64,000 nucleotides of DNA from Siphonodentalium dalli. Lineage: Eukaryota; Mollusca; Scaphopoda; Gadilida; Siphonodentaliidae. The stretch's first letter is position 1; every line of letters begins with the position of its first letter. Below the pieces are notes generated by a model. It worked only from the letters and a program-made list of their open reading frames with translations. It did not search any database and was not told where the DNA came from. Made by a program: the position numbers and the translations under genes. The stretch spans positions 130,529,282 to 130,593,281 of the forward strand of contig CP136062.1 of assembly GCA_032622095.1 (NCBI GenBank), written 5' to 3'. This document shows, in pieces, positions 26,070 to 57,842 of this stretch.

Positions 26070-26071
26070 TA

Positions 26072-34353: not shown

Positions 34354-34357
34354 TTAA

Positions 34358-37335: not shown

Positions 37336-37717
37336 CCCTTTACCCAACAAACCGGCCAAAACCGGGCAAATAAAGCTTCAACAGCCTAAAATATCTTCGG
37401 TCTGTCTCAATAGAACCATACAAATATGGATATCATTGGAACCGGCTCCTTGACCACATTGTGATAGTTACAGTTTTGCCCTGTGCCAATGCATTCTCTT
37501 ATATATGCGAGTCGACCATAGGTCGCCTCGCATATATAAGAGAAGGCATTGGCCTAAAAAAAAACACTTTTTACCATTTTTTCTTACATTCTTTAACAAT
37601 TTTATAATTTTGAATGTATTACGCCAATGCATTCTCTTATATATGCGAGGCGACCTATAGTCGACTCGCATATATAAGAGAATGCATTGGCACAGGGCCG
37701 TTCTGTTGGATAAAGGT
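37336..37717. mobile_element. TTAA-bounded piggyBac-like MITE with two hairpins
   Basis: TTAA at 37332-37335 and 37718-37721. Ends CCCTTTACCCAACAAACCGG and complement of ACCTTTATCCAACAGAACGG. Inside are two palindromes of about 80 bases (about 37477-37551 and 37622-37695) built on ATGCATTCTCTTATATATGCGAGGCGACCTAT and its complement, separated by about 70 bases. The hairpin core is shared with elements at 50.4 and 57.2 kb. piggyBac affinity rests on TTAA plus CCCTTT-type ends. Confidence 0.75.
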
Positions 37718-37721
37718 TTAA

Positions 37722-37945
37722 ACTGTTATGATATGTTGATATCCCAACAAGTATAGTTAGTGTTAAATGTACTGATATTAGACTTAGACCAAAAGTCGAA
37801 TATTTTCTAACTTTTGATCAAATCTTCGGTCTGAAATAGCCATCAATTGCAAAATTTTCAACCATAGGGGGTGATGTTTCACATTTCCAACAATTATACA
37901 TATTCCGCTATCAGTGGAAAATTCCAACCCAACGTGGGGTATCAA
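37722..37945 (+). repeat. Old dispersed repeat, right part
   Basis: AGACCAAAAGTCGAATATT, CCATAGGGGGTGATGTTTC, CATTTCCAACAATTATAC and GGAAAATTCCAACCCAAC echo 47680-47900. With 37195-37335 it formed one copy before the MITE inserted. Confidence 0.4.
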
Positions 37946-38070
37946 TCAGGCAAGCAATTATGGGTACAATGGAGAGCCACTCGGTCTTGGCTATGCTATG
38001 CTTTAAATTTCAACGATGCAAATTAATGCAGAACATGGCTATATACATATACTCAATGGGGTCACTTACA

Positions 38071-38152
38071 TCGTCATAATCATCCTCATCGTCATCTTCG
38101 TCGCAATCATCATCATCTTCATCGTCATCATCAGCAACAACAACATCATCAT
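38071..38152 (+). repeat. Imperfect ATC/GTC trinucleotide repeat, left part
   Basis: Runs of ATC, GTC, TTC and AAC triplets, continuing at 39251 after the inserted hAT-like element. Confidence 0.7.
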
Positions 38153-39250
38153 CAGTGTTCGCGCTGTCGGTAGCCAAATTAGCCAATGGCTAATCTTTTT
38201 CGAATTTGGCTAATCAAAATTTCATTTGGCTAAACTTTTTTTTACCCCAAATGGAGAATGAAAGCATGGAGTCAGAAAGCTAATTAATAAAAGCGTTCAA
38301 TAGATCGACATTCAAGACGAAGTTAGGTGACGAAAGTATTTCATTATTTTCGTACTTATGAAATATCGTTCCGTAGCAGCAAAAGGTAAGCTCTAACATT
38401 TAGTGATGTGAACGATCTAGTCCGAAAACAACGAAAGTGGGAATAAATATATCGCCGACTGTACAAAGGGAAACCCGATCGCGGACAGTACAAAGGGAAA
38501 GCGATCGACAACTCTATCAACCAAGCGATCACAAAGTGATATGCAATCATATTTAGTGTTTTAATCTGGAGAATGATTACGTCACTCTGCACGAAACAGC
38601 AAAAGGTCATTATATTACATTTAATCCCCTAATCCCCCATTGTCTGTCTGGTCACTCACGGGGCCTCTGCACAATGCATGTTTATGATGACATTGTATTT
38701 ATGACCGTCGAGGTTTATGAGCACCAAGTGTAAGACAATAGCTTAATCAGCCAAATGTGAATCACGACAGATATTTTGTGGCTATTTGTCGTCAATATCG
38801 ATACAGTCAAAATAATATGCATGCTTTTATGACAGATTGTAATTTGATAATTGCGTAACAATATTAAGTTATTAGTTTCCAGATGTCACTTAGATATTTT
38901 CGCAAGGTTAAATATTTAATGATTTAAAAAAAGATATTGATATAAAACAAAACAAAAATTAAGGACAATCCCGGGTTACCCCCCCCCCCCCCCCCCCCCC
39001 CCTCCCAATCACTCTTTCACATAAAGATTAAATAAATTTTTAATAAATGATGTATATAAAAATACTTCTAGTTCATCAAAATTATTTAAATTATTGTGTA
39101 TTTTACCTGTGTCTGTTAGATTTAATTTGGTCAAAGTTTTTTTTAATTTGGCCAAAAAACATTTGGCTAAAGTTTTTTTCATTTGGCTAATCAAATTTTC
39201 ATTTGGCTAAACTTTTGGCTAAAAAAAATTTCGGTCCAGCGCGAACACTG
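38153..39250. mobile_element. hAT-like non-autonomous element, copy 2 (1098 bp)
   Basis: Terminal inverted repeats CAGTGTTCGCGCTG / CAGCGCGAACACTG, flanked by the 8 bp direct repeat ATCATCAT (38145-38152 and 39251-39258). Because the insertion is in an ATC microsatellite, the target duplication alone is weak evidence, but the TIR and the subterminal ATTTGGCTAA words (38205-38232, 39120-39220) agree with hAT. The right end AATTTCGGTCCAGCGCG matches copy 1 at 27.5 kb. The interior has no transposase and includes a 24-base C run at 38979-39002. Confidence 0.85.
38979..39002 (+). repeat. Poly-C tract (24 C)
   Basis: An uninterrupted run of 24 C inside the hAT-like element, G-rich on the minus strand. 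The exact length may be unreliable because homopolymers are assembly-prone. Confidence 0.8.
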
Positions 39251-39480
39251 ATCATCATTTTCATCAACATCGTCGCCCGTATCATCCCTATCGTTGACAT
39301 TTTTGTCGCCGTCTTTATCAATCTTCGTCAACATCCATCCCATCTTCACCGCCATCATCCTTATCATCAGCATCATCGACGTTGTTATCGTCGTCGTCAA
39401 TCGTCGTCGTGGCTGACATCTTTATCCTCATCATCACCAACGTCGTCATCATTATCACTGATCGTCATAATCATCATCAT
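39251..39480 (+). repeat. Imperfect ATC/GTC trinucleotide repeat, right part
   Basis: Continuation of the triplet array at 38071. The open frames here (for example 39203-39529) arise from the triplet periodicity and are not genes. Confidence 0.7.
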
Positions 39481-39849
39481 TTCCGATAATCCGCTGTTTG
39501 CATCCCCGCCCCATACCAATATATCCTGACTTGACAATATATATCTAGGTCACGAGTTTGGAATTTTTTTGTGAGTGTGTGATGCATATCATATTTGGCA
39601 GAACGACTTGTGTATAGGCTTATGTGCCATGATATATAATGGTCAAACTTTGACATATATAATGTGGATACGCTTAGGTCACCACTCAACATATAAGGAA
39701 CTCTCGAAAGCGTGTCCATTTGAAAACACTTTGCGGTCTGAAACCTCAAATTGTATTTACAAATGGTCACTCCTATCACAGTATACGATCTGGTTCCCGT
39801 TTCAATGAAAGTGTCGTTGACAGTGAGAGCACTCGGAGAGCAGATATCA

Positions 39850-40200
39850 TACATTAAAGTCGATGGATTCAAATGTGAAATCTCAGATGACCGGTGACAG
39901 CCACTGGTGTTTTTTGAATGACATTCGGAAATTGTTTTGTAGCTCCCGAATTAGTAATTGTTATTTAAGAATAACACACAAGAAAGTTGATGGTGGCCTT
40001 GTTTTTGATGGAAAATCGATCAAATACGATATTTATAGAAGTGTTCCTAGACATGACTGTCATTTTAAAACATTTCTCCAATAAGGGTGGGGCTGCAGTG
40101 TATGCCGATGGATTTTATCTAGAGGTTACCCCGACGAGTCATATCCGTTTTGGTCAATCAGATGATTGCAGGGTGTGCCCAATAATTTAGTCATGCAGAG
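39850..40200 (+). repeat. Old GGCGGCCATG-type repeat, second locus
   Basis: GATGGATTCAAATGTGAAAT, TGATGGTGGCCTTGTTTTTGATGG, CATTTCTCCAATAA-G-GG-GCTGCAGTGT, and ATCTAGAGGTTACC occur in the same order as in 35.64-36.08 and 41.56-41.83 kb. Confidence 0.45.
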
Positions 40201-40639
40201 AGACACGGTTGGGGAATCGCGTGGCTTCGAGTTGATGAGTATCACGCATTCACAATGACCGAGGCGACCGCAAACGCGACCAGAAACGAGGAAAAGGGTT
40301 ATATACCAGAATGATAGTAGTTGGCAGCTACGAGCATATGCTATACTATTTTTCAAACAAAGTTGTCAGTCGAAGGATTCTCCTAGATGTATGGAATTGT
40401 GTATTTCACGAACCTCCGACTGGCAACTTTGATAAGAATGTTATAGAAAACTATTCAGAATTTCCGAACAAATAAGGTATCAACTTGTTTTTAAAATAAA
40501 CTCGCATAATTATGCTCGTAACTGTCAAAATGCTATGTTTTGTGTCAGTTCCTAATAAATTATGTTTGTGTGCGTTTGCACATTTTTAATTCGTGGTACT
40601 CACCTTGCAGCCTCGAAACCACGTAATTCCCCACCGTGA

Positions 40640-40915
40640 AAGATTAATAAACAAGACGGCTGTTGGCGGCCATGTTTTTAATCTAAAATCGTTCAAATTC
40701 GTTAGCTCTCATCTGAAGTTCATCCCGAATATCCGTATGGAGTTCGTGACCAATCGGATGGATAATGCTGGTTGTATGGTGCACCGAAGGATTTCGTCAT
40801 TAAAGAGTAAAACCAAGATGGCTGCTTGCGGCTATGTTCGTGATCGAAAATCGTTCAAATTCGATATAGTCAGGCAGCCGAACCGGTATTTTACTTTGTG
40901 GATTCCGGTGACATA
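40640..40915 (+). repeat. Old GGCGGCCATG-type repeat, third locus
   Basis: Contains TTGGCGGCCATGTTTTTAATC, ATCGTTCAAATTCG, AGCTCTCATCTGAAG, ACCAATCGGATG and a second partial unit AAGATGGCTGCTTGCGGC. The frame at 40593-40916 is carried by the repeat. Confidence 0.45.
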
Positions 40916-41559
40916 GGGATTCCGTTTGAATAATCCACCGGGTGACCAACCGCCAGCCTTGTGGAATTTGATCAATTCGGGGTTAATTAATGAGACGGTT
41001 TACTGGGAAAGAACCGGAAAAGTATAGCACTAGTACAATAATATATGTCGTCCGAATTTGTGATGATTGTCTCAAAGAAGGCCGCTGGGGCGATGCTTGC
41101 AATCGTGAAAATCTTAGGTTTGACGCAATTTCGAACAAAAGCCCTCAGTAGCGGTATATGGAATCCTAATGGTCATAAATTGGTATTTGTCAAACTGGTG
41201 GTCAGTCCAACAAAGATATAGCCATCGAATGGGAACATTGTTTAAATACGTAAATAGGACGAAGATCTTATGGTGCCCGATAATTGTAGAATGATTTTGA
41301 TATCATGCCAAGTAATGGGAATACGACGTTGCAGTGGATAGAAATGTATTGTTTAATCTTTTGTTTCATTCCGACATCATTAAGCCACCAAATTAGAACC
41401 TTATTCGGGCGTACCTAACATGCTGATCAGCAGTTTACATACTAAAATGCTGATTACCAGATTTCCCGACCTCAGTTTAACTCATTTTTAACGAAGAGAG
41501 TTGTTAGTCGTGTAAATGAAAGGAAATTAGAAGGTAAAGCGTAGGAGCCCAAGCTAACA

Positions 41560-41825
41560 TTTCTTCGATAAATGTGGGCTGCAGTGTGTGTATGTGGATT
41601 CAAATTTGACATTCCAAATGACTACTGGCGGCCGTGCTTTTCAACGAAAAAAAATCGAGAAACAAATCGACAGCTCCCATCTAGAGGTCACATGCACCAA
41701 AGATCAAACGAATTTTGGTAACGATCGGATGAGGAATGTGGCCTGTAGGGTGTTCCAAAGGAAATTGTTGACGGACGACAGCCGCCGACACACGACAATA
41801 GCTCAAACTTGACTTCGTCAATTCG
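41560..41825 (+). repeat. Old GGCGGCCATG-type repeat, fourth locus
   Basis: Reads TTCTTCGATAAATGTGGGCTGCAGTGT, GGATTCAAATTTGACATTCC, ACTGGCGGCCGTG, CAGCTCCCATCTAGAGGTCA and GGTAACGATCGGATGAG, the best-preserved unit of the family in this window. Confidence 0.5.
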
Positions 41826-42575
41826 AGTTAAAATACATGTATGTCAATAAATACATGGCATATACATGTACGTTTGTACTTTGTACGGATTTGATATACA
41901 ATGTACAATGCATTTCTGCCATTCTATATTATACAGTTCATTTCGGATATTTTGTAAAAGTTACCCGAAATAACGCGTTCCATTCTCTTATTGCCCCAGA
42001 TTATCGGTGTAAATGTTCTAACAACTTCTAACTTTCACAAGTTGTATAGCAGCTGGCACATTAATGATGTTCCACTCAACATCAGATAGTATTTTCTTTC
42101 GTCTGCATACTAATTTATCATAATATACTTCCGGAATTAATTACAACGAATTACAAACTAAACGAACACTAATATTACTCGGAATCCTACCGCAAACAGG
42201 CACAAATAGAAACCAGAACCACTCCCGGTCCAGCAAGGAGCCATAAATCGGCTATATAGCGTAACATTTAAACCCAGATATTTATTTTATCGCTGAAAAC
42301 CACTGTATCTAACAGCACATGCGACGGCCATGTACTAATTTTTGCCTATGATGGCTAACCTAAATTACAATAATACTCGATTTTATTGCTTCCATACAAA
42401 GCTATACACTGAGGTGCTTTGCTATCCGGGACGTGTCTACGCTGATGAGTTCAGCGAAGCTAATATAAACCAGAGTTCTTGTTATTACATTGCTAACTTC
42501 AATTCTTTAATAACTGAATCAACATGGAGTAAGGGAACATATGTACACAATATTTACAACATAGTTATTCCTTCA
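41826..42575. other. No gene recognised
   Basis: No supported feature. The 157-codon frame at 42342-42815 begins here and has no domain; its last third covers a triplet repeat. Confidence 0.4.
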
Positions 42576-42660
42576 TCATATTCTTCGCAGTCGCCGTCAT
42601 CACCATCGCCATGCATGATCATCATCATAATCGTAGTCAGTCATCGTCACCATATGCATA
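42576..42660 (+). repeat. Imperfect ATC/GTC trinucleotide repeat
   Basis: Triplets TCATCA, GTCATCACC, ATCATCATC and GTCATCGTCACC in an imperfect run, as at 38.1 and 39.3 kb. Confidence 0.5.
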
Positions 42661-42815
42661 TACATGTACTGAATTGGATCTATCAAAATGCTATGATATA
42701 TCTCAGGAACCTTAATTTCGTAACTCACGTCATTCGCTTTATTTTTGCACAACTAGAGGCGGGACTGTCCCAGTTGGCCAAAGATACCACTGCAGTGCAA
42801 TTTGGGCTACATTAA

Positions 42816-43027
42816 CCCTTTAAGCCGAGTGCCAAGTCCGAGTTTTGTATCAACCCATATTTCCTTGATCATTTTTCAAATTTATTGATTATAATAATGT
42901 GACACATTGATGGAAAGAGCTCTAAGAGCCCTTTCCATCAATGTATCACATTATTATAATCAATAAATTTGAAAAATGATCAAGGAAATATGGGTTGATA
43001 CAAAAATCGGACTTGACACTGAAAGGG
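42816..43027. mobile_element. TTAA-bounded piggyBac-like palindromic MITE (212 bp)
   Basis: TTAA at 42812-42815 and 43028-43031. Ends CCCTTTAAGCCGAGTGCCAAGTCCGA versus complement of TCGGACTTGACACTGAAAGGG. The whole element is a near-perfect palindrome around GAGCTCTAAGAGCCC. The subterminal phrase TATGGGTTGATACAAAAATCG is shared with the 50.4 kb element, but the hairpin core here is different. Confidence 0.85.
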
Positions 43028-43084
43028 TTAAGGGTAGCGATATTAGCTTAAAAATTAACAACAACTCTCTTCAAATGATTGTGA

Positions 43085-43990
43085 TTAACTTCACAATTAC
43101 ATGAGCTACGATTCCTATGATGGTAAATATATGAACCAAGAAGATGATAAATAAAAGCTTGGACAAAATATGTATGTCGCAATAAAGTCAATAAAAGGCC
43201 GCGACACCTGGCGACACGGTGGCTTAATTTTGAGCGGAGGCTTTATAGAAATATATTATATGGAATAAATATGTGTGCATTGTCTTATAAATGAGCTGCA
43301 TACAAAATAACCAGATCTGAAAACAAAATCTTAAAAGTCGAAATATAACCTCAAATTGGCACAAAATCAACAACATTCTAAGAATACAGGTTCGGACAAA
43401 TTTGCATCTCAGGATGTACGATACTATGTCGAATATTGGCAATAACTCCGCCAAAATGACTCCGACTGAACTCAAAATCGCAGGTGTGCATGTTCGTATG
43501 TTGGTTGACATCTATGCCAAGTTTTAAAACAAATTGACTGGAACATGACGGAATACAGACTCGAACAAAAGATGTGTCCCAGGATGTAAGAGTGTATGTC
43601 GAAAAAGGACAATAACTCAGCCAAAATGACTCCGACGGAACTCAAAATCGCAGGTGCGCAGGTTCCCATGCTGGTTGACATATGTGCCAAGTTTAAAAAA
43701 AAGAAAATGACGGAATACAGCCTCGGACAAACTTCCGGGGGGACGGACGCTCGGGCACACGGACGAGGGTCATTATATGTATATAGTCCTCCGACGGAAT
43801 ATCGGGTGGGGGGGGGGGACAAAAATGGGAATAACTACTAAATAAATCAGCCATACCTCATAATTGCAGGTGCATACACTGCATAGGTTCCCGTGATGGT
43901 AAATACATAATTTATGCCAAGTTTCAAAACAATTGACCAGGAAATGTAGAAACGCACGATCGACAAAGTTGCGTCCGCACACAGAGTTAA
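43085..43990 (+). repeat. ~170 bp tandem repeats
   Basis: The phrase AAAATGACTCCGAC-GAACTCAAAATCGCAGG occurs at about 43453 and 43622 (169 apart), with GTTGACAT-TGCCAAGTTT and GGAATACAG-CTCG-ACAAA in each. Weaker monomers are at about 43090 to 43140 and 43855 to 43985 (CAGGTGCATA, GATGGTAAATA, TGCCAAGTTTCAAAACAATTGACC). The GGACGGACGCTCGGGCACACGGACG stretch and an 11-G run at 43808-43818 lie between. Confidence 0.65.
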
Positions 43991-44316
43991 CAGGATATTA
44001 CGTTCTAAAGGCGTCAATCAAAGCGGAAATGAAAATAATATACGGTCCATTTGTTTTCATTATTTGTATAACTATGTGCTTAACTTGGACAAAGAATATT
44101 GCTGAGGCAGATAATACGGAAATGATCTATACAAAAAAAAGGGAAAAATAGGTTGATTGATGCGAAAACAATTAGAACAATATTCGCTATTTGGCTATTA
44201 GACTACCTGTATATTGGGCGTTATGGCATTTGGTTATCGAAACTGTGTACAATGTATTTGTGATTGTAAGCGCTGGTTTATCAACTCTCGTTATATATAG
44301 ATAACCATACCTCGTG

Positions 44317-44520
44317 GGGCAGTGACTCAGTTGGTAAGGTTAATGACGAATTGGGCCAGCATAAGCGGTCCAGCGATGCCGATGCTGGTTAGAATTCTGA
44401 TAACAGCGGGTGTGTGGTCCACACACAGATTCGTTATTCCCATTGAACAGTTTGTCCGTAAAACGGTTCTTTTCGAGGCAACGATTGTTTCTATGTGCAG
44501 TGGTAAGATCGTCCGGTGAA
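44317..44520 (+). mobile_element. tRNA-derived SINE, decayed
   Basis: Starts GGGGCAGTGACTCAGTTGGTAAGG with an A box; the B box position reads GCTGGTTAGAATTCTGA about 60 bases on. Downstream GATTGTTTCTATGTGCAGTGG matches the core of the SINE at 33.4 kb (GGTGGTTTCTACGTGCAGTGG). No tail or target duplication was found. Confidence 0.5.
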
Positions 44521-44799
44521 ATTTGCCCTCTTTATTCAACCCCTAAGACGAAATACGTCGTGATATTGTATGGCGAATGGATTAACTCAGTTTATTCCGA
44601 CAGACTACATATACTCTAAATGTATGTGGTAAAAATATAGGCGACGAATTTTACGTAATATTGGAATGTCTGTGTTTAAAAGACTTGCGAGTCGAATAGG
44701 CCTATATGAAGACATACTATTACTCTAGAGCAAATACCACCAAACTATGCATATGTGTTAACTGTAAGCGACGGGAAACATTGAAAAACCTTTATATTA

Positions 44800-44968
44800 G
44801 GGGATAACGGTGTGGTGTGTTGTGATTTCGGAAAGGTACGTTAATATACTGTGGCAAATTTAGTTTAACCGGCGACGGCGGAGCCGGAACCGATTAACGC
44901 AATTTGCCACAGTATATTAACCCTGTACTTCCCGAAATCACAAACAAAAACACCACATTGGTATCCCC
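44800..44968. repeat. 169 bp inverted repeat
   Basis: Arms of about 75 bases: GGGGATAACGGTGTGGTG and GTGATTTCGG at the left, CCGAAATCAC and CACCACATTGGTATCCCC at the right. The inner arm CGTTAATATACTGTGGCAAATT pairs with its complement. A GC-rich centre (GGCGACGGCGGAGCC) contrasts with the AT-rich arms. Likely a single-copy MITE in this window. Confidence 0.75.
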
Positions 44969-47544
44969 ATTCTAATTGTCTTCGAACCAAAAACGTTATT
45001 TCAGCACACATCCCTTATAATTATCAACGAAATGTCCCGCCATAGAACACACTCAGCCAAATCACGACTGTTTTAATGCGCTGGGTAAAATATAGTATCT
45101 AAATTAGCATCGCTTTTTGTTGCGTTTATGCAATTAAAATTGTGATATATATCATACATGTATACGCATAACCATGCTTCATATATACACTGAATCGATT
45201 AAACGATTTGATACAAATATTAACTGTCTCAACATATATAGGAAGACTATTTCTTGCTAATTGCTGCATGGGGTGTCGGGAAACACAATTCTGACACGTA
45301 TGGTACGTTTTTACCCACTGCTCGATCCAAATTGTTTTGTTTTTTTATCAAGTTTTTTCCGACCATTTTTCGATACCAACCCACCCCCTAGAAACGCGAT
45401 ATAAAAGAAATTCGGAAGAATATTAGAATTTTACCGCTTACTTCTGTTTCCTAGCAACTACCTCTTACATGTTGGTGTGTGCGATTAGTTCAATTGGACA
45501 TGGCAGTGATTGTTTATGCAATATGTCCATGCATTTTATGTTCGGAATGACATAGACTGACATATACCGGATGTTTCAGTGTGTTAAGTAATTTTACAAC
45601 AAGAAAGAACATATACTCAGTCTAAAGGCAGTTTTAGTGTTAAAACAACCGTATTTCTAAGTTTAAAATAAAAAAATATGTAGTTGAAAAGCATGGAGGA
45701 CAGTTTTTTTTTAGCTGCGGAAATAATTAATTTTGGGTCCTCTTGATCACCCACCCCTCCCCCACATACGTACTCGAAAAACAATGTTTAACCAACCCCA
45801 ACCCCCCCCCCCCCCCCCGCCTGCGCGTTGTAGAAAAAAAAAACCCTTATCCTTTTTGGGTCCACAACGTCTGGTACTTCTGGAAATAGTTTATGACATT
45901 TAGATTAGATATGTCTTATTTTGTGCATGATTCTTTAAATCTAGTCAATCAATCAGGAATGTCTTCTATTGAAGATCGTCCCACGTGATTTATGCTGTAA
46001 GTTTGTGTTTCTTTGTCATTTATGTCGGGAGAGATAGATCATGCAATATTACGATAACTTAAGACTGTTTAGTGTTTACACACATGCGACCATGCGTCTA
46101 TGGATCTAAGGCTATAACTCAAGCCATTCATCGATAAAGATCAGACAGACCATAAGTGCAACAAATTATTATAAACCCTCAGATATATGTGTAGACTCCA
46201 AAAACATTGAGTTCAATCAAGCGTTGGACGAGTTCCATATTAGGATTCGGCGGCAGACAGATTCGTCACGGCATACCTCAGAGAGGGAAGATGAAGGAAT
46301 AGTGTTGTCATTACTCATTCAACTCATCGCCAGCGATATAAGCTTTAATGGCCCCGACCCCTATATTCTCTCAGTTTTCAATATCAGTTGTCTCATCATC
46401 ATACGAAACGAATGCATCAAACTAGTATCCATTTCATTTACATAAGCGCAATTACGATTGGATATCAGTCAGATATTTCCCGGCGTGCCCTTTGGGTAAT
46501 CAGAAATTCACGAACAGGACATTGAAGTGGAATATATAGTGAATTGATAGTCTATGGCAGTGCCAACTTATTTTCAAAGTGGAGCCAATTTGTGATGTGT
46601 GTGACCTGGGTACCACCTCAGTCGGTGTCAATTACACACGTGACTCTTTGGGAATATGAAGCTGGTTCAATCCGATTCATCAGTAAAATAAACATCGAAC
46701 TTTTTTATCCGAGTCACAGATCATGATATTGAATTCCCATCCCTATTTGAACCAAGATAGACTCGTTGATAAGAAGTATTAAGAAAGAACGTGTAAATGT
46801 TGTCAAGTAATAAATTTAAATGTATCGTATATGCTATAAAAGATTCAATATCTGATTCGAGAGAATCCGTATCATCTATAGGTTACAATAACTACATCGG
46901 TAAAAAAATTACTTCCTTCGGTGATTGGCGAACTGCCCATACATACCAGAAAGACGACCAGTGTAAGTATCAAATTGTCGAACATGTGTGACCGAGACCG
47001 AGACGTCTCAATCTCTACCAGAGTTCTCTATCTTAACAAGATTCTTGTAAACTCAGAGATATGTACACGTACAGTAATGATTTCGACAGCGACAACACAG
47101 ACTGATCACATAATACCAGATTCGTGTTCAAACCGGCCCATAAATTATGAGTTTCCCATTTAATTTACAAATTTCATTTTGCCTGGGACTATTTTGTCTG
47201 CCTAGTATTACATGTCATTTTGCATTTATACTGATGCACCACATTACAGTGAGTATAATTGTTTACGATACAAGTTGCATATTTCGCAGTTGCATGTTTT
47301 GCGCATAAAATCGGTGACATTATCAGATTAGTTAAATTACAGGCAGCATTTTAATCAGTTTTGTGACAGAGGTTAATATCGGTAATATGTACCAAGATCC
47401 CTCAGGCAGTGCATAAACATTTCCAATTATCTCCCCTTTCTCTGCTCTTTTCATTTTTCGTCATAAAAATGTTGTATTCATCATTGTAAATATTGAGGCA
47501 AACTATTGTTTAAACCAATAATCAGGTCAAAATAGTAAGTCGGT
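44969..47544. other. No gene recognised; poly-C at 45802-45818
   Basis: A 17-C run lies at 45802-45818, followed at about 45832 by an A run of 10 or more. No domain-bearing frame; the frames at 46224 to 47163 look like chance. Confidence 0.4.
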
Positions 47545-47905
47545 GACAGGGGGTTTGTGGTGTCTCAATCACCAAACATTGGCTAATTTTTCGACAGTTG
47601 TAAATATCATGCCTGACACAGTAGTTGGAAATTTAAGACCAAAAGTAGTTTGAAATGTTTCTCACACTGTGTACGATAAGTCGAATATCCTCCTGCGTTC
47701 TGTCAATTTAAGGAGAGAAATTGCCATTAGGTGGCAAATTTCCAAACTGGGGGGGGGGGGGGTGGTGTCAAGTTGGAAATTACCAACAGTTGGAAAGTTT
47801 GATGTATACCATTTAAACAATTCCAACCTTAGGGAAATTGGAATTACCCGGATTTTGGGTCTGGTCGAACTGCAGTTGGACATTATTACAATATTGGACA
47901 CCCAA
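47545..47905 (+). repeat. Old dispersed repeat, uninterrupted copy
   Basis: Parallels 37195-37335 plus 37722-37945: CATGCCTGACACAGTAGTTGGAAA, AGACCAAAAGTAG, AAGTCGAATAT, a G run of 14 (47749-47762) followed by TGGTGTCA, CCAACAGTTGGAAAG and CAATTCCAACC. It serves as an unoccupied relative for the MITE insertion at 37336. Confidence 0.45.
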
Positions 47906-48389
47906 CCAACGGAGACTCTCTGAGGTCAAATTACCCATAAACACAAGTTGTATTCAAGCGACGTATTCACGTTCAATCTGAGCTCTCTGGATTAACAAAA
48001 TCGGGTTTATTTAACCAAACGAGACCCGCCAACTACATGTATATCCCTTGAGTGGGTGTCCTATTCTTCATATAAGTGTGGTGTCAAATCATGTGATATC
48101 AATGAAGATAATTAAAAATAATTTTCAGGAACCATAGCGCCTCATATTTTTCCATAAATTCAAGGAACTCGGATTTTTGTTTGAGTTTGTTAACCATTTT
48201 TATCACATAATTTGGCCATAAAAGCAGTTTCATAATTATCGGTAATAGACACGTTTAATATCAGCGCGTGCGATGACGTCACGGCGTTCTTCAAATAACT
48301 TGCGATCGCTGTAGTTTATGATTGTTGTTTTCGATGAATATTGCGCGTTGCTTCTGGTTGCTTCGGGTTTATTTGATCATGTGATAAAA

Positions 48390-48532
48390 GGTATCTCACA
48401 CTCGTCCTATTTTATACGTAATTTATCAACCTCGTCCTCTAAGTTCTATTTGAGCCTCGGTAAACCTCGGCTCAAATCGAATTTAGTGAACTCGGTTGAT
48501 AAATTCCGTATAAACTAGAAACTCATGTGAGA
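48390..48532. repeat. ~143 bp inverted repeat
   Basis: Outer arms ATCTCACACTCG and CTCATGTGAGAT, then TTTATACGTAATTTATCAACC / GGTTGATAAATTCCGTATAAA, and inner ATTTGAGCCTCGG / CCTCGGCTCAAAT around TAAA (the two CCTCGG-type words are in the same orientation, so the very centre is imperfect). Confidence 0.7.
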
Positions 48533-48552
48533 TCCTCTATATATACTAAACA

Positions 48553-48627
48553 ATCATTGGCAATTAGCTATCCCTTACGAAATGTTCAGATAATAAGTTC
48601 AATAAGTTGAACATTCCCATCAATGAA
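48553..48627. mobile_element. Small palindromic MITE, copy 3
   Basis: TCATTGG, CCCTTACGAAATGTTCAGATAATAAGTTCAA, then GTTGAACATTCCCATCAATGA: same family as 11706-11791, with a shorter centre. Confidence 0.5.
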
Positions 48628-48871
48628 TATGCATCGTTCTGCACTTTCTAGTGTCTGCTAATATTTCCTGAACATCCCTCCAGATGAATAGATTCTTCCA
48701 ATGTATACTTTTATGACTGAGTGGGAGAATCCATTTAGTGTAGAAAGGGCACTGATATGACTAATTTGTTCACCCTTACAAAAAATATAGAATGCTCACA
48801 CCTGGAAAGACTACATTCCATTGATTTGTATGTATAGTAAACTGGACATCCATTATGAATTGTACCTATTA

Positions 48872-48928
48872 TTAGAATTCAAAGGGTGAAATTCACGCCT
48901 TAGAATTCAAAGGGTGAAATTCACACCT
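48872..48928 (+). repeat. 28 bp tandem duplication
   Basis: TTAGAATTCAAAGGGTGAAA plus TTCACGCC is repeated once with two changes. Confidence 0.8.
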
Positions 48929-49135
48929 CCGAATTAAGTGGCATACATATCTACAAACAAAATTCAATAAAACTCTAATTGAATCCTCATAAAGACACAA
49001 AACTTGAAAGCTAATGGTGCGATATAATACTTTCATTGGTTCATTAGTTCAAAGGCATTTTTTTGTTGGAAAAATGGTTTGTGTTTTTTTTCCTAGAAAA
49101 CCAGATTTGTATATTTGAAAGTATGCATGCTAGCT

Positions 49136-49487
49136 TTAAAGGTACACAATTCGATTCGAACGTCCCCGTGTCATCAGATTCCAACAACAACAACATTTCT
49201 TCAAAAGACAACTCAGTTATCAGAATAAATAATGCTTACCACTGTCAACTCTAGTATAACATTTTCCAAAACGTGTTAGATATCAACATTTTGTTCAACG
49301 CAATTTGGTATCGAGAGTATGTCGGTCTGTTTGTCAAATATTTGCTAGGCCGCCAAATATTCCAGGTGGTGAAAAATAACATATTTCAAAAATCGTTATC
49401 TGATAACTCTGAGCTCTGCTGGGTGGGTTCCTCGAATCAAATATGTTTTATCCTCGAAGCGAAAGAAATAGTAATTTATGGGCGTTA
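49136..49487 (+). repeat. Dispersed 350-460 bp repeat, copy 2
   Basis: Same landmarks as 8937-9395, including TTAAAGGTACAC, CCAACAACAACAACATTTCTTC, AATGCTTACCACTGTCAACT, TTGTTCAACGCAAT and GAAGCGAAAGAAATAG. Shorter in the middle, where copies 1 and 3 have a second GGCC-TATT word. Confidence 0.65.
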
Positions 49488-49819
49488 ATTCCGATTATGT
49501 ATCTAACAGTATATTTACCAAAATATAAACTAATGCTTGCATCACTTTAAGTGCTCTATAGCTTTTCAAGTGAAAGATATCGTTTAATTTATGAAAGATT
49601 TAGTTGTTGAAAAATTTGCCATGCCTTTCAATGCTGAAAAAAAACTATATCTTCTAACATCTGAGCCACCTTAAGAATTTCGCAAATATTCCAGAACACA
49701 GAGTTCATTCTTTCAAATTCACTTCGATCTTAATACTCATCGGCCATCTGTCCTTTTGTCTTTGCAGAAATGCGGTATCAATTTTTTCATCTTAGTTATT
49801 TGTATGAATAGCACGTGTT

Positions 49820-50002
49820 GCGATACACATGCATCACTTTTCTATGCCATTCTTTTATGTAACGTGCAAACTCTCTTCAGAGTTTCCGCCTTGCATAATA
49901 GTACAGCCTTGCGATACGCAGCATTTCTCTTGTGTGTCGTTCTTTTATGTAGTGCCCTTAAATCTGCAATAAAGTGCAAGCACTATTCAGAGTTTTCTCC
50001 CT
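49820..50002 (+). repeat. Diverged ~90 bp tandem duplication
   Basis: GCGATACACATGCATCACTTTTC...CATTCTTTTATGTAACG...CTCTTCAGAGTTTCCGCCTT is followed by GCGATACGCAGCATTTCTC...CGTTCTTTTATGTAGTG...CTATTCAGAGTTTTCTCCCTT. Non-coding despite an open frame across both. Confidence 0.6.
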
Positions 50003-50431
50003 TATAATTATTGAGTCGACCCATTGTTGTTCTCTTGTCAACATCATCAATGAAATCATTCTTAAAGCCAACAGAATCGTTATATTGCCAAGAGATCTTT
50101 CACCGACAGTGAAAGGGCATAATAATTACTCGCCAATACCGACGATATTAGAACATGGGAATACAACGACCAATTTCAACCAACTAAACATTCCAGAACA
50201 ATTAGGAGTGTTTAAACATGCCCGACCAAATTAATCCCACAGTTCTGGTGCCTGTATATGCACCATATGACACAAGCCATTGTAAATCAAATATAATGTC
50301 ACTTAAACACCAGCTCTATAAATGAATTATGATCGAAATGTACAAAATACTCTTTGGACTGTACAACATCGAACAAGATAAAAACATCAGGATAGAACGA
50401 GTTTCCAAGGACATTCGGAAATACTTCTTAA

Positions 50432-50664
50432 CCCTTTGAGTGCCAGGGGCCGATCTCATCGGCCCTAAACCTACAAAATAAGTCTGTTAAAGAATATAAG
50501 AATATATTATAAAAATTGTAAAAAAAACAAACAAACAAACAATTGTTAGACCAATGCATTCTCTTATATATGCGAGGCGACCTATGGTCGACTCGAATAT
50601 ATAAGAGAATGCATTGGCACAGGGTATATGGGTTGATACAAAAATCGACCTGGCACTCAAAGGG
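50432..50664. mobile_element. TTAA-bounded piggyBac-like MITE with one hairpin (233 bp)
   Basis: TTAA at 50428-50431 and 50665-50668. Ends CCCTTTGAGTGCCAGG / CCTGGCACTCAAAGGG. Subterminal TATGGGTTGATACAAAAATCG is shared with 42816-43027. The core is the ATGCATTCTCTTATATATGCGAGGCGACC hairpin also present in the 37.3 and 57.2 kb elements. The left half has a small GGCCGATCTCATCGGCC palindrome. Ends and TTAA fit piggyBac superfamily MITEs. Confidence 0.85.
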
Positions 50665-50751
50665 TTAATATTGTCGCAGATAGCCATGTCATCGTGGAAT
50701 GCGTTGCCCGTACGTGTGGTTAAAGATGCGTTATCCGAATTAACGATCGTA

Positions 50752-51176
50752 AATTACTATTTCTTTGGCTTCGGGAGTAAAACACATGATTTGATTCGAG
50801 TCAAGTGATCAGATATCGATTTTTGAAGTTTGTTATTTCTCGAGATGTGCAATTATTTGTGGCCCAGAAAAACGTGGTCAAACGGACGATCTCGGACAAA
50901 ATTGCGGACAAAGATGGATAACTCTAAAATCAAGTGGTAATATGGCCAAATTTCGTGATACCCAAGTGATAACACGGCCATATTTCGTTGAACAAATTGT
51001 TGATAAATAACACGTTTTTGGAAATTTGATACCATAGTTGACAGTGGTTAGCATGATTTTGTTGCAATTAATCGAATCTGATAACTAAAGCGTATTTTTA
51101 AGAAATGTTGTTGTTGTTGTTGTTGTTGTATATTGATGATATGGGGACCGTCTGATATCATTGAGTACATTTAAAG
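50752..51176 (-). repeat. Dispersed 350-460 bp repeat, copy 3
   Basis: Reverse orientation. Retains both GGCC-TATT words and ends at TTTAAAG on the right. The AAC run (TTG on plus) is expanded to about seven units at about 51105-51129, compared with two or three in copies 1 and 2. Confidence 0.65.
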
Positions 51177-51713
51177 CGGTATCGTTCAAAGAACAATATT
51201 ACAACTACCACCAGAATGAGTATTAGGCATACGACTAACATAAATTTTAACATTAATATATCAATAAGGGGCAGAAGTCATTTCGACTTATTCTCCAAAT
51301 ATGATAATCATTTTGCTTAAATCTAAAGCATTCAAGATGTTCATGATTCATAATCTCCAGAGTGCCAACAGTGGATTTCCCTAACACAGTCAGCGTGCAT
51401 ATAAAGTTGTCCAGTGGTCGCTGTCAATATCCCTAGGCACGTCGGTGGAATTTTGAATTCCTTATATGTGGAAATATTTACACTCATACAGCCGTGGAAC
51501 ATGAATGCAGAACGTTGGTTGGTTCAAATCACGTAATCATTGTGATGTCGTCCGTAGACCACAACTTGTTCCATTAAGAAATTTATGTTGATACTCACAC
51601 AACATCAAATTGCTCCTTTGACACTATCATATTTGATGAAGCTTATTTGTGTCCTTGTGGGCAGTAGCTGATTCGATAATGTACATAACACATAAATCGA
51701 TCATAACCAGCTA
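51177..51713. other. No gene recognised
   Basis: No supported feature. Confidence 0.4.
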
Positions 51714-51727
51714 TGGCGAAGTTGGTT

Positions 51728-52038
51728 GATTGATTGATTGATTAGGGTTTTATGTCGCTTTAGCCACTAAGGCCATATCACGACATTGCCAGTGTTAATG
51801 GTGGAGGAAATCCGCACACTTACGGCTAATCTAACAGTGATTTCAATGGCTGATAAACTCGTCGACCATGTGCGGCAAACCACCGGCCATCGGCAAGTAA
51901 CTGGCAACTTTCCCAGATAACTATTTCGAGTTACAAAGTCCACGATGGAAACATGTGGATTTGAACCCTTATCGCCAGCGCTGGAAGGCGAAACGGCTTG
52001 GAGTTGTACCTCTAACCGATTGGGCCACCGAGGCCCCT
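51728..52038 (-). mobile_element. Complete tRNA-derived SINE with 14 bp target duplication
   Basis: Flanked by the exact 14 bp direct repeat TGGCGAAGTTGGTT (51714-51727 and 52039-52052). On the minus strand it starts AGGGGCCTCGGTGGCCCAATCGG, has an A box (TGGCCCAATCGGTTAGAGG, 52029-52011) and a B box (GGGTTCAAATCC, 51968-51957), then a ~220 base body ending GCGACATAAAACCC and a tail of (AATC)n, written as (GATT)n on plus at 51728-51743. These are the parts of a Pol III-transcribed SINE mobilised by a LINE. The 174-codon frame over it is not a gene. Confidence 0.9.
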
Positions 52039-52177
52039 TGGCGAAGTTGGTTCGAATCCCGATGAGCAGGATAGTGTTCTGTGCCAAAGAATGATAGCCC
52101 CATTCGTGTATTTGGACAAAGTTTTCAATTGTTTTTCGCGATTTTACCGTGTGTAGTTCGGTAGTGAAACTAACCTT

Positions 52178-52333
52178 CTGGTTTAAACTCGAAATTGCAG
52201 GTCTAAGTGATGCATTCGTCTTCCCTGGTTTAAACCCCGTCCAGCCAAACCATGGTTTAGCAGCAGTGTCTCTATATACACGAGATTCCAATTAGAAACA
52301 AATTTGTCACCATGATAGCTGTAATTCGATTGG
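52178..52333. mobile_element. TIR element with TTTAAACC words, partial copy 2
   Basis: Complement of about 15180-15395: GGTTTAAACTCGAAATTGCAGGTCTAAGTGATGCATTCGTC, CTGGTTTAAACC, GGTTTAGCAGCAGTGTCTCT and GTAATTCGATTGG. Both outer ends are missing. Confidence 0.6.
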
Positions 52334-52797
52334 TGAAAATCAGCTACTTCGGTTTCGCAACCGATCGTATTTTCTCTTATTCCGATATATCGTCGGCGTC
52401 CCTTTGTCGACAGCATTAAACATATTGATTAGATGGCTGATAGATGGAGCCATTCTTGTTAACTTGTTGTCATAGATGGACACCGTGATCTCGATGTGTG
52501 TGATTTTGTGTACACCGTTATTGCGATTCTCGGCGATATCTTGGGGGGGATATATGTTATTTTACGATAATTGTATTGAAATCGACATCTTTTTATTTTT
52601 TGGATTATGGGTCAGATTTTATCAAACTAGTTCGCTTTATACTATTTTATGACTGTTAGTTTTGAAGAATAATGTCAAAGGAAGGGGAGTTGGTGTCAAC
52701 AATAGTTGTATTTTAATAAAAGTGTCTTTGAAGCCATTTTCCCAGACTTTGTGAGATTTCATCGAAAATCGACCTGGGACCCTTTTAAAATATTATG
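52334..52797. other. No gene recognised
   Basis: No supported feature. Confidence 0.4.
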
Positions 52798-52799
52798 TA

Positions 52800-53012
52800 C
52801 AGTAATGCCCTAAGTAATCGACCTCTTAACCACAGCAGAATTATGGGTAACTTTTCAGGATTTAGTCGAAAATATGGTTTGTTGCCATTCATCGGAAAGC
52901 TCCCGGGGAGAGCTTTCCGATGAATGGCAACAAGTCATATTTCCGACTAAATCCTGAAAAGTTACCCATAATTATGCTGTGGTTAAGAGGTCGATTACTT
53001 AGGGCATTACTG
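52800..53012. mobile_element. TA-flanked palindromic MITE, copy 2 (213 bp)
   Basis: TA on both sides (52798-99 and 53013-14). Ends CAGTAATGCCCTAAGTAATCGACCTCTTAACC and the exact complement; nearly the whole element is one palindrome meeting at GCTCCCGGGGAGAGC. This is the simple form of the family seen expanded at 26072-26408. Ends plus TA fit pogo/Tc1-mariner MITEs. Confidence 0.9.
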
Positions 53013-53014
53013 TA

Positions 53015-53886
53015 TAATACAAAATAATAATAAAAAATATTCCCTAACCCCTGTGTTTCCTATATAAATGGAAGTTTATCAAGAGTTATTGAAGATTCTC
53101 AATTGGTGGGCAATAAATACGATAATGGAGCACCAGTTGATGTTTCCATGCCAACGGGTGTGTAAATAGTGCCAGCGATTTATTCAGGAGAAAAACAATA
53201 TCTTGACCTATAGGTATATAGATGCATATATATCAAACACAACTAGGTCAGAGCATAACGCTGTTGACAAAGTCAGCTTCAATGACAAGCTTATGACTTA
53301 TTGATTCAACTGACATTGATACTCAGTATAGATCCTTTGTTTGTGGTCAAAAATACATGAACACGATTATGCTGATAATGATATGTAAATAACTGGATTT
53401 CAATTTGACCTTGGATATGCCAATGCGGTATGTGGACGTGTATGCAAGTACAAAGTGCAAAGTTCAATGACTGAGATACACGGAACCACACGAGTGTGTA
53501 CTCTTGTGATGACATAAGAAATAACTTGCAGATCGATTGGGGTCATTGGAGCTTGACCAGCAGAGTAATTAAAGTGAAACACACACCATCGCCACCATGT
53601 TGTTGTTGTTGAAATCCGATGTTCACTATCTGTTCCTAACGCTTCTGTAAACTATATGCATGGTTTATCTCCCCTGATGACTCAATCTAATGCTATAAAT
53701 AGATTGAGGGTATCCCCGCATGGCTTCACGAAATCGTAATAAAAAGACAGATATATTGAGCGTAAATTGGCAAAACGCGATCAAATAAGAAGAAGTTTTC
53801 GTCAGCGCGAAGATGCGGAAACAAATTGGAAAGAGCGGCGAAGTGTGTGTCTTCCGCCATTGATTTTAGGCATCACAAGGGCTGAA
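53015..53886. other. No gene recognised
   Basis: A short Arg/Glu-rich frame at about 53766 to 53870 (LAKRDQIRRSFRQRED) looks protein-like but is too short to name. Otherwise nothing supported. Confidence 0.35.
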
Positions 53887-54311
53887 GGGGGAGGTCCACC
53901 GTCAAGTGAACAATTTTGAATGGGGATTTCCATGCAAATCTGCGGAGTAAAAGTTACACAGAGTGGCACACACTTCTTAGTGTGACTTGATGTGGTATTA
54001 TAAACAACAGGTATTTAGCTGGTGGGTCCGCTTAGTAAATTATAAAATTTTGCAATAAATATATTTTTGAGAATTTTTTTCTGGAATTACATCACTTGAC
54101 CTACATTTGAAAAATCAATATAAAATTCAAAAATAAATACACACCAACAACCAATCATTATAATGGAACAAGTTCCAAGCGGACACGCCAGATAAATACC
54201 CGTTGTTTTCAATACCACATCAAGTCACTCAGAATATGTGCAACTCTGTAACTTTTGCTCCGCAGATTTGCATGGAAATCCCCATTCAAAATTGGTCACT
54301 TGACCTCCCTC
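53887..54311. mobile_element. TTAA-flanked foldback element, copy 2 (425 bp)
   Basis: Left flank TGAA (53883-53886, probably a mutated TTAA), right flank TTAA (54312-54315). Ends GGGGGAGGTCCACCGTCAAGTGA / TCACTTGACCTCCCTC. Arms match copy 1 at 33972-34353 in TTTTGAATGGGGATTTCCATGC and TCTGCGGAG, AAAAGTTACA, GTGGTATT, and the right arm repeats all of these inverted, so this copy is the better palindrome. Confidence 0.75.
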
Positions 54312-54317
54312 TTAAAT

Positions 54318-54787
54318 AGGTTAAAAGTTAAATCAGTCACAGGCATGCTGTCTGAGCTAAAGCTCCCAACCCTCGAAGAAAGAAGGAAAGAACAACGACT
54401 GGTTCAATACCACAAAATAGTCAAGGGGTTGGTCCTAGATCATGCCATGATCTAGGTTGGTCCCAGCCCTTCCTAATCCTGATTATCTAAAACACAAGAC
54501 GAAAGACACAAGGAAAATAAAGCCAACAAAATTTGAGGACTGTGTCAGTCAAAATCTGGTGGAGAAGGAGGTGTGTAACAACACAGAATCGTTCCCAACT
54601 TCTGAGTACCAGCAGCTCACAATACGAACACTCCTTCTTTGTTAAAACAACTGTGGAATGGAACCACCTGGAACAGTCGGTTGTTGATATCAGTGACATT
54701 GACAGTTTTCTATCTGCTCTGCGAGGGGAACAACAGTATGGGGTGCTTTCAACAATGCTAACAAGGAGCTATTGCTTAACTATTTAA
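54318..54787 (+). pseudogene. LINE ORF2 3' end relic, frame-broken
   Basis: Three frames in succession carry the C-terminal signature of CR1/L2-like LINE proteins: SVTGMLSELKLPTLEERRK then QYHKIVKGLV (54255 frame), PNPDYLKHKTKDTRKIKPTKFEDC (54457 frame) and YEHSFFVKTTVEWNHLEQSVV then SFLSALRG (54533 frame). They match the pattern L-x-W-x-x-L-x-x-R-R, F-Y-K-I-x-N-x-L-V, R-S-T-R-G and N-S-F-F-P-R-T-I-x-x-W-N-x-L-P. The frame changes fall near 54450 and 54600. It abuts the foldback element at its left, which may mark the truncation point. Confidence 0.75.
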
Positions 54788-54914
54788 AATTTATGCTTGT
54801 TTATCATATATAATAAATTATTTTTCAATTATTTCGCTTGTTGCTTATATTTATACTCCAAAATCATTTGGATGGCTCAAACAACAACATTGTCATTGCA
54901 TATATTAAGTACTA

Positions 54915-55317
54915 TATGGGAGATAAATTTAACATTTAATGGCTGATTACGCTTAAGCGTAACTCCATTACGCTTAAGCATAATTGGTTTGAATTGCCTT
55001 ACAACCTTATATGTAATGGTAGGCCTACATGTATCTAACTTAGTAAGGTTTAATGTTCTGGGCGGATGGTAACCGACTGCATCAATTTCAGCTTCAGGGG
55101 AGTTTTTCCAATTCTATTACGCTTTACTTTAGCGTAAATGCATTACGCGTAATCGTAACTGAATTACGCTTAAGTCATAATGTAATACACTTAAGTATGG
55201 TATAATGGAAATCTAAATTACGCTTAGGCATTGCGCATTAAGCTTAAATTTATGTTTAAGCATAATGAATTACACTTAAGCGTGATTATCAATTAAATGT
55301 GAATTTGGCCTCCCATA
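54915..55317. mobile_element. TIR element with CTTAAGCGTAAT subterminal repeats (403 bp)
   Basis: Ends TATGGGAGATAAATTTAACATTTAAT and complement of ATTAAATGTGAATTTGGCCTCCCATA. Just inside both ends are many copies of a ~12 bp word, TTACGCTTAAGCGTAA and variants (54945-54985, 55125-55285). It is the short relative of 59144-61666, which has the same ends and TTAAGCGCAATT words. No coding capacity. Subterminal short repeats are typical of hAT and Kolobok-like elements; superfamily not decided. Confidence 0.75.
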
Positions 55318-55321
55318 TGTG

Positions 55322-55458
55322 TACTATTGTTGTTTCGTACACTTTGCACCACGCTTGGTTGTTTCGCACCATATATTTGGCCATTTCGTACCATTGTTGT
55401 TTCGTACACTTTGCACTAATGCGTTTGGTTGTTTCGCACCATATATTTGGCCATTTCT
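55322..55458 (+). repeat. 67 bp tandem duplication
   Basis: TTGTTGTTTCGTACACTTTGCAC and TTTGGTTGTTTCGCACCATATATTTGGCCATTTC occur twice at 67-base spacing, directly right of the TIR element. Confidence 0.8.
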
Positions 55459-57247
55459 CACCACTTGTTTTGTCGTTTTCCACAACTGTCATGCGTAACT
55501 TTTGAAAAAAATACTTTGAAAAAGAACATATTAAGTTACGTGATGACAACCCGCCAATTAGACACATTTCATTTTTTTGGGAAAAAATCACAAATTGTGA
55601 CAACAAAGTTCACGTTATTTAAAAAAAACATCATATCAATAGACCCAGTCAATCAACTTACGAGTCTGGATATTTATTAGACTGCAATATACCTTATAAT
55701 TATACCAAATTATACCGGTATGAAATTGTCACTTGGAAGGAAGCGTTTATGGGGGATACAAACCCGCTGTGACATCGTCACCACCTCCACGACAGTCTGA
55801 AGTTAAAATGAACCTGGTTTCTCAATGGATGAGTGATTCACCGATAATTGATACTTTTGCCTCTCATAACAAAATGCAATATATACACAAGTGTATGGTA
55901 ATAGCGTATATGAAGACTGGAGAAAATTTCATGTGTATATACCAAGTACATGTATATTTAGAGTTTTAAAAAGTTTCTGAACCCCTTTGGTTGTAAATAG
56001 AATGCATTCAGCGATTCTGACTTCAAACTTGTGCCTCCTAATTATATAGCTTGATTGAGTTGAAAGGTTAGAAAATCAGTGCCCTCTCTTGAAATTATGT
56101 CTTATTGAATAATCTCTGTTTCATATTGTAATTACAGTTTAAAGATGGTCTATATATTCCTATTACAAGTGTTATATATTTTCCTGGGTATAAAATAATA
56201 AATATGAATCGAAAACCCCTGTCCGGAAAGGCTTCTATCAATTACTGTTCATTTTATTTTGAATTTTCTGGTATATACTAGCATAAATACAAATAATTCG
56301 CGACATTTTACCGCTTGAGGAAACGTTCGGAACATAGCAAGCAGGAAAATAGTAAAAAAAATTGTCCCAACTGATTATCAATCAGTTGTAATATTAAATG
56401 ATAGAAGCGTTTCTGGACTGGTGTCTCTGACAACTTGACTTATCATTATTATTTTATACCCCAGAAATTATAGAAAACATTTAGGAAGAGATGATCCATC
56501 TTTAAGCCAAATCACAAACTCATAAATAGCTTTGTGTTTCGGCATAAAGCCTTTGGCCTGTGTAATTATATTAGGATACAAAGATTATTTATATTTATAA
56601 ATACATCTCAGTAAAAAAATATCAACCTAAATTGTATTTGACTGGGAAATATTGTTAAATATTATATTGGGAATTTATAGTGATATTGATGTGACACTGT
56701 GTGTCATAATGAATGTGCACTTCTCGTTTTCTGGAGAAATATCAATAATGAACATAAGAACAAAGTTGATCTATTTCTCCATGTTCTAATAGGTGATGTT
56801 TTTATCGAATATATTTGCACATTTTACCCACTGCCGCACTGCGAGTGCATTGGTCCATTTAATATTTCATGTAAAAGTGGTGAAAACTGTAATATTAAAC
56901 AAGAACAATGGCTTTAGTTAACACAAAATTCACTGAAATATTTTCAGTGGGGTTTCTGTGAGGAAAAAAAAATAGTTTTTCCTCATAGAATCTCCACATA
57001 TATATTCAGACAGACAGATGGGGAGGCGTGTTGAAAAATGATTGGGGGAAACAAATGTTAAGAGGGAAAGAAATTGGTTGTGGGGTGGGTGACTCGCAGA
57101 AATGGCCAAAGGTAAAAAAGTATCATACGTGTCTGAATATATATTAACACCCCAGAGCAAATTGAAATAAATTTAAATCCATATACCCTGCTTTTCTCAT
57201 GGCATTTTGTTGGTGTTTTGTTGAATAAAATTAACTTATGACTGAGA
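55459..57247. other. No gene recognised
   Basis: AT-rich, no domain-bearing frame, no shared repeat. Confidence 0.4.
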
Positions 57248-57251
57248 TTAA

Positions 57252-57838
57252 TCCTTCAGTCTTGATACTTTTCCAAAAATGCCATTTTTTGGCATTTTTG
57301 TCTGTTTAACAAATTATGGGGCATAAATAGAAAAAAACAACCAGTCATGCTTATTCTTTTATATATGTGAATCTCCCATAGGAAGCCTCGCATATATACA
57401 ATCTTATATATAAGAGAGTGCACTGGCTTAGAAGTTCAATATAAGTATTGTTAGCTTAATGCATTCTCTTATATATGCAAGGCATCATATGGGAGACTCG
57501 CATATATAAGAGAATGCATTGGCACAGGTTTTCAAAACATTTCAGGAAGCTCCAGTTATGGAAGGATTAATAATAGATAATGGTCTCCCATATGGCACCT
57601 TGCATATATAAAAGAATTCCCTTAGGTAGCCTCACATATATAATAGAATGCACTTGCTTACAAGGTCAAGATAAATATTGTTAGGCCAATGTAATGTATT
57701 CTCTTATATATTCTAGGATCCCTACTGGAAACCACCGTATATAAGAGAATGCATTAGCACAGGATTTTTGCAATATTTCCAACGCTCCAGTCATGGAAGG
57801 GTGAATGCTGCACTAGCGCTGCTCCCATCATGAAAGGG
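57252..57838. mobile_element. Composite TTAA-bounded element with stacked hairpins
   Basis: TTAA occurs at 57248-57251, 57567-57570 and 57839-57842. The right terminal phrase GCTCCAGTTATGGAAGGATTAA appears at about 57550, then as GCTCCAGTCATGGAAGGGTGAA at 57784, then GCTCCCATCATGAAAGGGTTAA at 57821. Between them are several hairpin modules of the ATGCATTCTCTTATATATGC type (57350-57425, 57460-57530, 57580-57650, 57690-57762), in varied states of decay. It appears to be one piggyBac-like MITE enlarged by duplication of its hairpin and right end, or two elements sharing a TTAA. Confidence 0.6.
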
Positions 57839-57842
57839 TTAA

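Follow-up and report, generated by a model that had tools for sequence, protein, structure and literature searches.

The scaphopod mollusc Siphonodentalium dalli carries, in a 64,000-nucleotide window of its genome (assembly GCA_032622095.1, contig CP136062.1, positions 130,529,282 to 130,593,281 of the forward strand; coordinates below count from the first letter of this stretch), four short TTAA-bounded elements, here called E1 to E4, in which terminal sequences and a central hairpin appear in different combinations. We interpret them, with a probability of roughly 0.65, as non-autonomous miniature inverted-repeat transposable elements (MITEs) of the piggyBac type whose ends and core would have been recombined between elements. 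Judged by sequence comparison, E3 is a mosaic, one core is found with end types A and B, and end type B is found with two unrelated cores (in E2 and E3); the same core is probably also associated with a third end type, C.

E1, 37332..37721, no strand: TTAA-bounded MITE of 390 bp (both TTAAs included), with ends of type A (CCCTTTACCCAACA / ACCTTTATCCAACA)
E2, 42812..43031, no strand: TTAA-bounded near-perfect palindrome with end type B, 220 bp, the phrase TATGGGTTGATACAAAAATCG at either side of a core that has no relation to the hairpin
E3, 50428..50668, no strand: TTAA-bounded MITE with CCCTTTGAGTGCCA on both sides (14/14), 241 bp, a mosaic that combines a right end of E2 type with a core of E1 type
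E4, 57248..57842, no strand: old composite of 595 bp between TTAAs, its body repeated in tandem

Results

E3 joins an E2-type end to an E1-type core

The two parts of E3 can be traced to different elements of the window. Its last 44 nt are 91% identical to the right end of E2 and 84% identical to the inverted left end of E2, and the match to the right end scores 59.0 bits, the best among 50 simulated windows (order-2 Markov) being 31.9. In two alignments with E1, of 82 nt and 74 nt, the adjoining hairpin is 95% and 97% identical, respectively, this core scoring 130 bits against 28.3 in the best of the simulated windows. The likeness to E1 extends past the hairpin into 35 nt of AT-rich spacer that are 83% identical, a level that 0 of 1000 single-base shuffles reach, with a score of 37.4 bits (best simulated window, 30.1).

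50625..50668, minus strand: E3 right end, like the E2 right end
50542..50625, minus strand: E3 hairpin, 95-97% identity to the E1 hairpins
50485..50519, minus strand: E3 spacer segment matching the E1 spacer, from sequence comparison
50446..50465, no strand: small palindrome GGGGCCGATCTCATCGGCCC, subterminal on the left of E3

An exact copy of the phrase TATGGGTTGATACAAAAATCG stands in E3, on the right only and not in the left arm, and another in the right arm of E2, whose left arm holds it inverted with one mismatch. Beyond the ends, nothing in the core of E2 resembles E1, E3 or E4 at E<=0.01, in agreement with the original prediction that the elements at 42.8 and 50.4 kb have this phrase in common around unrelated cores.

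One hairpin, two and probably three kinds of ends

The hairpin occurs once in E3, twice and in inverted orientation in E1, and in two well-kept and two decayed copies in E4, which confirms its presence in the three elements (50.4, 37.3 and 57.2 kb) where it had been predicted. It has no match at E<=0.01 in the window outside E1, E3 and E4.

37478..37562, plus strand: E1 hairpin copy a, CCTGTG side towards the left end, approximately 148 nt from where the left TTAA starts
37558..37618, no strand: AT-rich spacer between the E1 hairpins, with 35 nt (37564-37598) 83% identical to the E3 spacer
37616..37698, minus strand: E1 hairpin copy b, inverted, CCTGTG side towards the right end
57343..57434, plus strand: E4 hairpin a, decayed and bearing a short insertion (this and the next three from copy comparison)
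57448..57529, minus strand: E4 hairpin b, well kept
57578..57664, plus strand: E4 hairpin c, strongly decayed
57678..57765, minus strand: E4 hairpin d, stem kept, loop diverged
57529..57570, minus strand: type C end-like sequence (TTAATCCTTCCATAACTGGAGC...) that adjoins hairpin b inside E4
57764..57805, minus strand: type C end-like sequence (TTCACCCTTCCATGACTGGAGC..., TTCA for TTAA) that adjoins hairpin d inside E4

The two hairpins of E1 stand in inverted order around a 61-nt spacer and fold with it as one long foldback, the whole core being a 221-nt inverted repeat with CCCTGTGCCAATG ends. In the window, CCTGTGCCAATGCATTCTC is found in five well-kept copies (37480+, 37696-, 50623-, 57528- and 57763-) which all have CCTGTGC as the start of the hairpin, and in 5/5 of them the CCTGTG side points to a terminus or to an end-like sequence. 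The sequence that precedes these five junctions is A-type in two (E1), B-type in one (E3) and C-type in two (E4), and CCTGTG, counted from the first base of the TTAA (or TTCA), lies approximately 147 nt away at the left of E1, 25 nt at the right of E1, 44 nt in E3 and 42 nt at both junctions of E4. The body of E4 is repeated in tandem (57406-57571 and 57636-57806, 76% identical), a single case of such an arrangement, which lies inside one TTAA pair.

The ends themselves were compared by taking ten of them in 45 pairs, dropping the common first 10 nt and setting the cut at p<=0.01. Five pairs passed (E2 left with E2 right, E2 left with E3 right, E2 right with E3 right, E3 left with E3 right, and the two internal E4 ends, E4inA and E4inB), and since none of these joins A, B and C, the ends fall into three groups: A (E1), B (E2 and E3) and C (E4). 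The outer ends of E4 fell in no group at this cut. The idea that ends and cores behave as modules is sustained as far as a mosaic structure inside the window is concerned, but the 'family' into which the elements had been gathered is a loose one, with only 5/45 end pairs at p<=0.01 and none linking the three types. In contrast, two other foldback families of the window (26.0/52.8 kb and 33.9/53.9 kb) have ends and cores in common together.

Boundaries, tips and the proposed piggyBac-type assignment

TTAA flanks both ends in 4/4 elements, which have the CCCTTT-like ends anticipated for them; the coordinates first proposed were those of the interiors minus TTAA. Over the 14 nt that follow TTAA, left and right ends agree at 12 positions in E1, 14 in E3, 8 in E2, because of a small indel near its left tip, and 7 in E4, because of decay. 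The self-complementarity of E2 is 92.8% over 209 columns. According to excerpts of Wang et al. 2010 (PMC2872659), a TTAA target and a CC[C/T]T tip are hallmarks of piggyBac elements and of their MITEs, and the elements described here fit that assignment, as the tip (here CCCT) is strictly present at 6/8 ends and one base off at the other two (ACCT at E1 right, TCCT at E4 left). The Kolobok/T2-MITE group, which also targets TTAA and has an AGGRR/RR tip (excerpts of PMC6004289), was considered and rejected on account of the CCCTTT-like tips.

An unguided scan of the window for TTAA pairs returned seven with at least 12/14 agreement, compared to none in 20 first-order Markov windows. Only two of the seven correspond to the elements (E1 and E3), E2 and E4 being below this 12/14 cut, and inspection placed the remaining five in or at other repeats: two (26098 and 52826) within a palindromic family with CAGTAATGCCC ends, one (44841) within a palindrome, one (59260) in tandem repeats, and one (33968) on the border of a third foldback family.

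Coding capacity was examined in 146 of the 222 stop-to-stop open reading frames (ORFs; at least 62 aa) by comparison with Pfam at E<=0.01, the scan leaving aside those four of the 150 longest ORFs that lie on the elements and the 72 shorter ones. RVT_1 was the sole strong match (E 1.3e-15); eight other families had E values of 0.0027-0.0092, none of them a transposase. The strong match is a partial reverse transcriptase domain in a 315-aa open frame (60276-61220, minus strand), probably a retrotransposon fragment.

Constraint on the hairpin

Mismatches were counted against the E1/E3 consensus at 43 stem and 25 loop positions, with seven copies tested. Stem positions have changed less than loop positions in copy b of E4 (2/43 versus 6/25, p 0.044) and in copy d (3/43 versus 13/25, p 0.00005); copies a (10/43 and 6/25) and c (24/43 and 10/25) have no excess of stem conservation, and the two copies of E1 and that of E3, from which the consensus was built, are too alike to show any stem/loop bias. 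Pair counting in the five well-kept copies of the seven gave 4 two-sided changes; shuffled sets average 1.8, and the signal is a weak one that 29/500 shuffles reach. Taken together, these counts are hints, far from proof, that the stem may be conserved. The five well-kept hairpins also fold strongly as RNA (z -5.1 to -13.0), which we do not take as a sign of microRNA precursors because any palindrome folds in this way, and that reading was dropped; there were 0 Rfam matches at the gathering score, and a transfer RNA scan of the window gave 0 genes.

Other repeats in the window

A further TTAA-bounded candidate, in addition to the four loci first proposed, lies at 12117-12604 (TTAACCCATTGGAGAGTA / TTAACCCTTTGGCGAATA, 11/14, a level that also arises in simulated windows); small palindromes of the AACGACATATATGTCGTT type stand close to its right end. 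Two TTAACCCTTTCTAyACTAA stretches (11684, plus strand, and 32037, minus strand) have an end-like sequence in common, with no partner end seen. The palindromic MITEs at 26069-26410 and 52797-53014, which look mariner-like, have TA-CAGTAATGCCCTAA ends, the 26 kb copy having extra partial copies of the core. The foldback family at 33963-34357 and 53902-54320 has two copies with GGGGGAGATCAAGTGACC-like ends, and TTAA flanks the 33.9 kb copy. Tandem repeats that have diverged, with a unit length near 136/269 bp, occupy 27574-28644.

Discussion

Our results suggest that ends and core of these elements have had separate histories. Whereas the mosaic can be read from the sequence, we infer how it arose and what the core does. 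By analogy with the family, mobilisation would depend on a transposase acting in trans, which would cut the element out at the CC[C/T]TT tip and insert it again at TTAA. The left end of E3, with a small subterminal palindrome, and its right end, with the phrase, look as if they came from a single parent transposon, and E2 could be an inverted duplication of that right end, since the phrase stands on both of its sides. The ends of E1 and E4 would come from other parent transposons. A separate core, made of the CCTGTGCCAATGCATTCTC-hairpin and the AT-rich spacer, sits in E1 and E3, its hairpin also in E4, and would have been recombined with the ends most likely during repair of an excision break, with another hairpin element as the source, or through ectopic conversion of palindromes. 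The body of E4 would have been duplicated in tandem later, as suggested by its 76% repeat. The piggyBac and piggyBat transposases bind subterminal palindromes via paired C-terminal domains (excerpts of PMC11707139), and it is tempting to speculate that the small palindromes, or the hairpin core itself, might be a palindromic site for such domains.

Several observations weigh against recombination between elements. A single mosaic, E3, bears most of the weight, in a set of four loci from one window that are known from one allele. Approximately 110 nt at the left of E1 have no assigned origin, and the left and right ends of E1 are themselves a pair above the p 0.01 cut, because the right end gives only 15 nt beyond the tip, where the comparison has little power. 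Both type C ends are internal to E4, and TTAA is intact in only one of them. The contrast with families that keep ends and cores together covers the two families named. No transposase domain was found in the 146 of 222 window ORFs compared with Pfam. Finally, exact-pattern scans gave 0 matches in viral contigs for the hairpin and end patterns and 0 in prokaryotic contigs for the hairpin, two results that are to be expected of such collections and say little.

It could also be that the hairpin-spacer-hairpin core was an independent palindromic element that nested into unrelated TTAA elements and was then carried along, which we consider unlikely. Such an origin would account for the core of E1 being itself an inverted repeat of 221 nt with CCCTGTGCCAATG ends and for an outer junction at the same base in five copies, and there is a precedent in the coral element CMITE-IN, which arose by nesting (excerpts of PMC2872659). 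However, no target-site duplication is found at the core of E1 (...CAGTTTTG before, CCGTTCTG... after) or at that of E3 (...CCCATATA on one side, only AT-rich spacer on the other), and the hairpin is confined, at E<=0.01, to E1, E3 and E4 within the window.

Descent of all four elements from a common ancestor, with the core kept alike by selection or gene conversion and the ends diverging under changing transposases, seems to us decidedly improbable. The better-kept stems of copies b and d in E4 point in this direction, and the authors of the CMITE study also suggest, in the excerpts of PMC2872659, that the internal region matters for transposition. Yet copies a and c have no stem excess, the pair counts are weak, the cores of E1 and E3 are 95-97% identical while their ends have no match at p<=0.01, and the distance between right end and core differs (25 nt in E1 versus 44 nt in E3). 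A more far-fetched possibility, a long shot in our estimation, is that the hairpin is a portable cassette whose constrained stem (CCTGTGCCAATGCATTCTCTTATATA) recruits or stimulates the transposases of several piggyBac lineages; an element could thus swap its ends, and hence its helper, and keep its amplification module. As for two unrelated MITE families with fixed cores and a phrase common to E2 and E3 by chance, the small number of elements in the window that carry the phrase, two, speaks for it; against it, the 44-nt match scores far above the maximum of 31.9 bits in 50 simulated windows, so that chance is ruled out for this match and the explanation is close to negligible.

Should the combinations of ends and core seen in this window hold genome-wide, S. 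dalli would represent a second lineage, after corals, in which piggyBac MITEs exchange their ends and keep a conserved core, the help of the core in transposition would become testable, and there would be a warning against classifying MITEs by terminal inverted repeats (TIRs) or by internal sequence alone. Six strings taken from the core and end motifs had no match in open-access papers; repeat databases were outside that search and the elements may already be catalogued. The end 19-mer TGGGTTGATACAAAAATCG was met in a similar stretch of seven prokaryotic records (six Levilactobacillus and one uncultured Lactobacillus metagenome-assembled genome), which were rejected as unrelated, a tip resembling TTAACCCTT lying 100 nt or less away in 0/7. 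A study of piggyBac in small animal genomes excluded MITEs, according to excerpts of PMC10813416.

As far as excerpts of the published descriptions allow the comparison, the elements of this window are a further example of behaviour already described in coral CMITEs and in Galileo. In Drosophila mojavensis, Galileo elements combine the TIRs of one subfamily with the internal region of another, for which the authors invoke ectopic recombination and conversion (PMC3573991). The chimeras of ends and internal region are alike in both cases; Galileo, unlike the elements described here, belongs to the P-element superfamily and has a 7-bp target duplication and long TIRs. The Kolobok/T2-MITE group of Xenopus (PMC6004289) has the TTAA target in common with our elements and includes a T2-MITE with an amplified internal segment, but its tip is AGGRR (RR in Kolobok) instead of CCCTTT.

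The closest parallel is that of CMITE families I-VI of Acropora corals (PMC2872659), where different TIRs surround a conserved internal region. In the first-found eight CMITEs the internal variants tracked the TIR families with one exception, an element in which TIR family and internal type disagree, and tandem arrays and a new element formed by nesting were also described. Window elements and CMITEs are alike in their TTAA target, CC[C/T]T tips, short non-coding sequence and several ends around one core, the latter being found here at five junctions (A, B and the end-like C inside E4), and CMITEs have been tied to piggyBac-like transposons, as we propose for the window elements. The internal sequences are different: with a published 60-nt CMITE query, the best match in the window was 12 nt (E 0.15). 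Unlike CMITEs, which are about 100 bp long, the elements of S. dalli measure 220-595 bp, their core is a near-perfect hairpin that is doubled in E1, and one type of end is also found with two cores.

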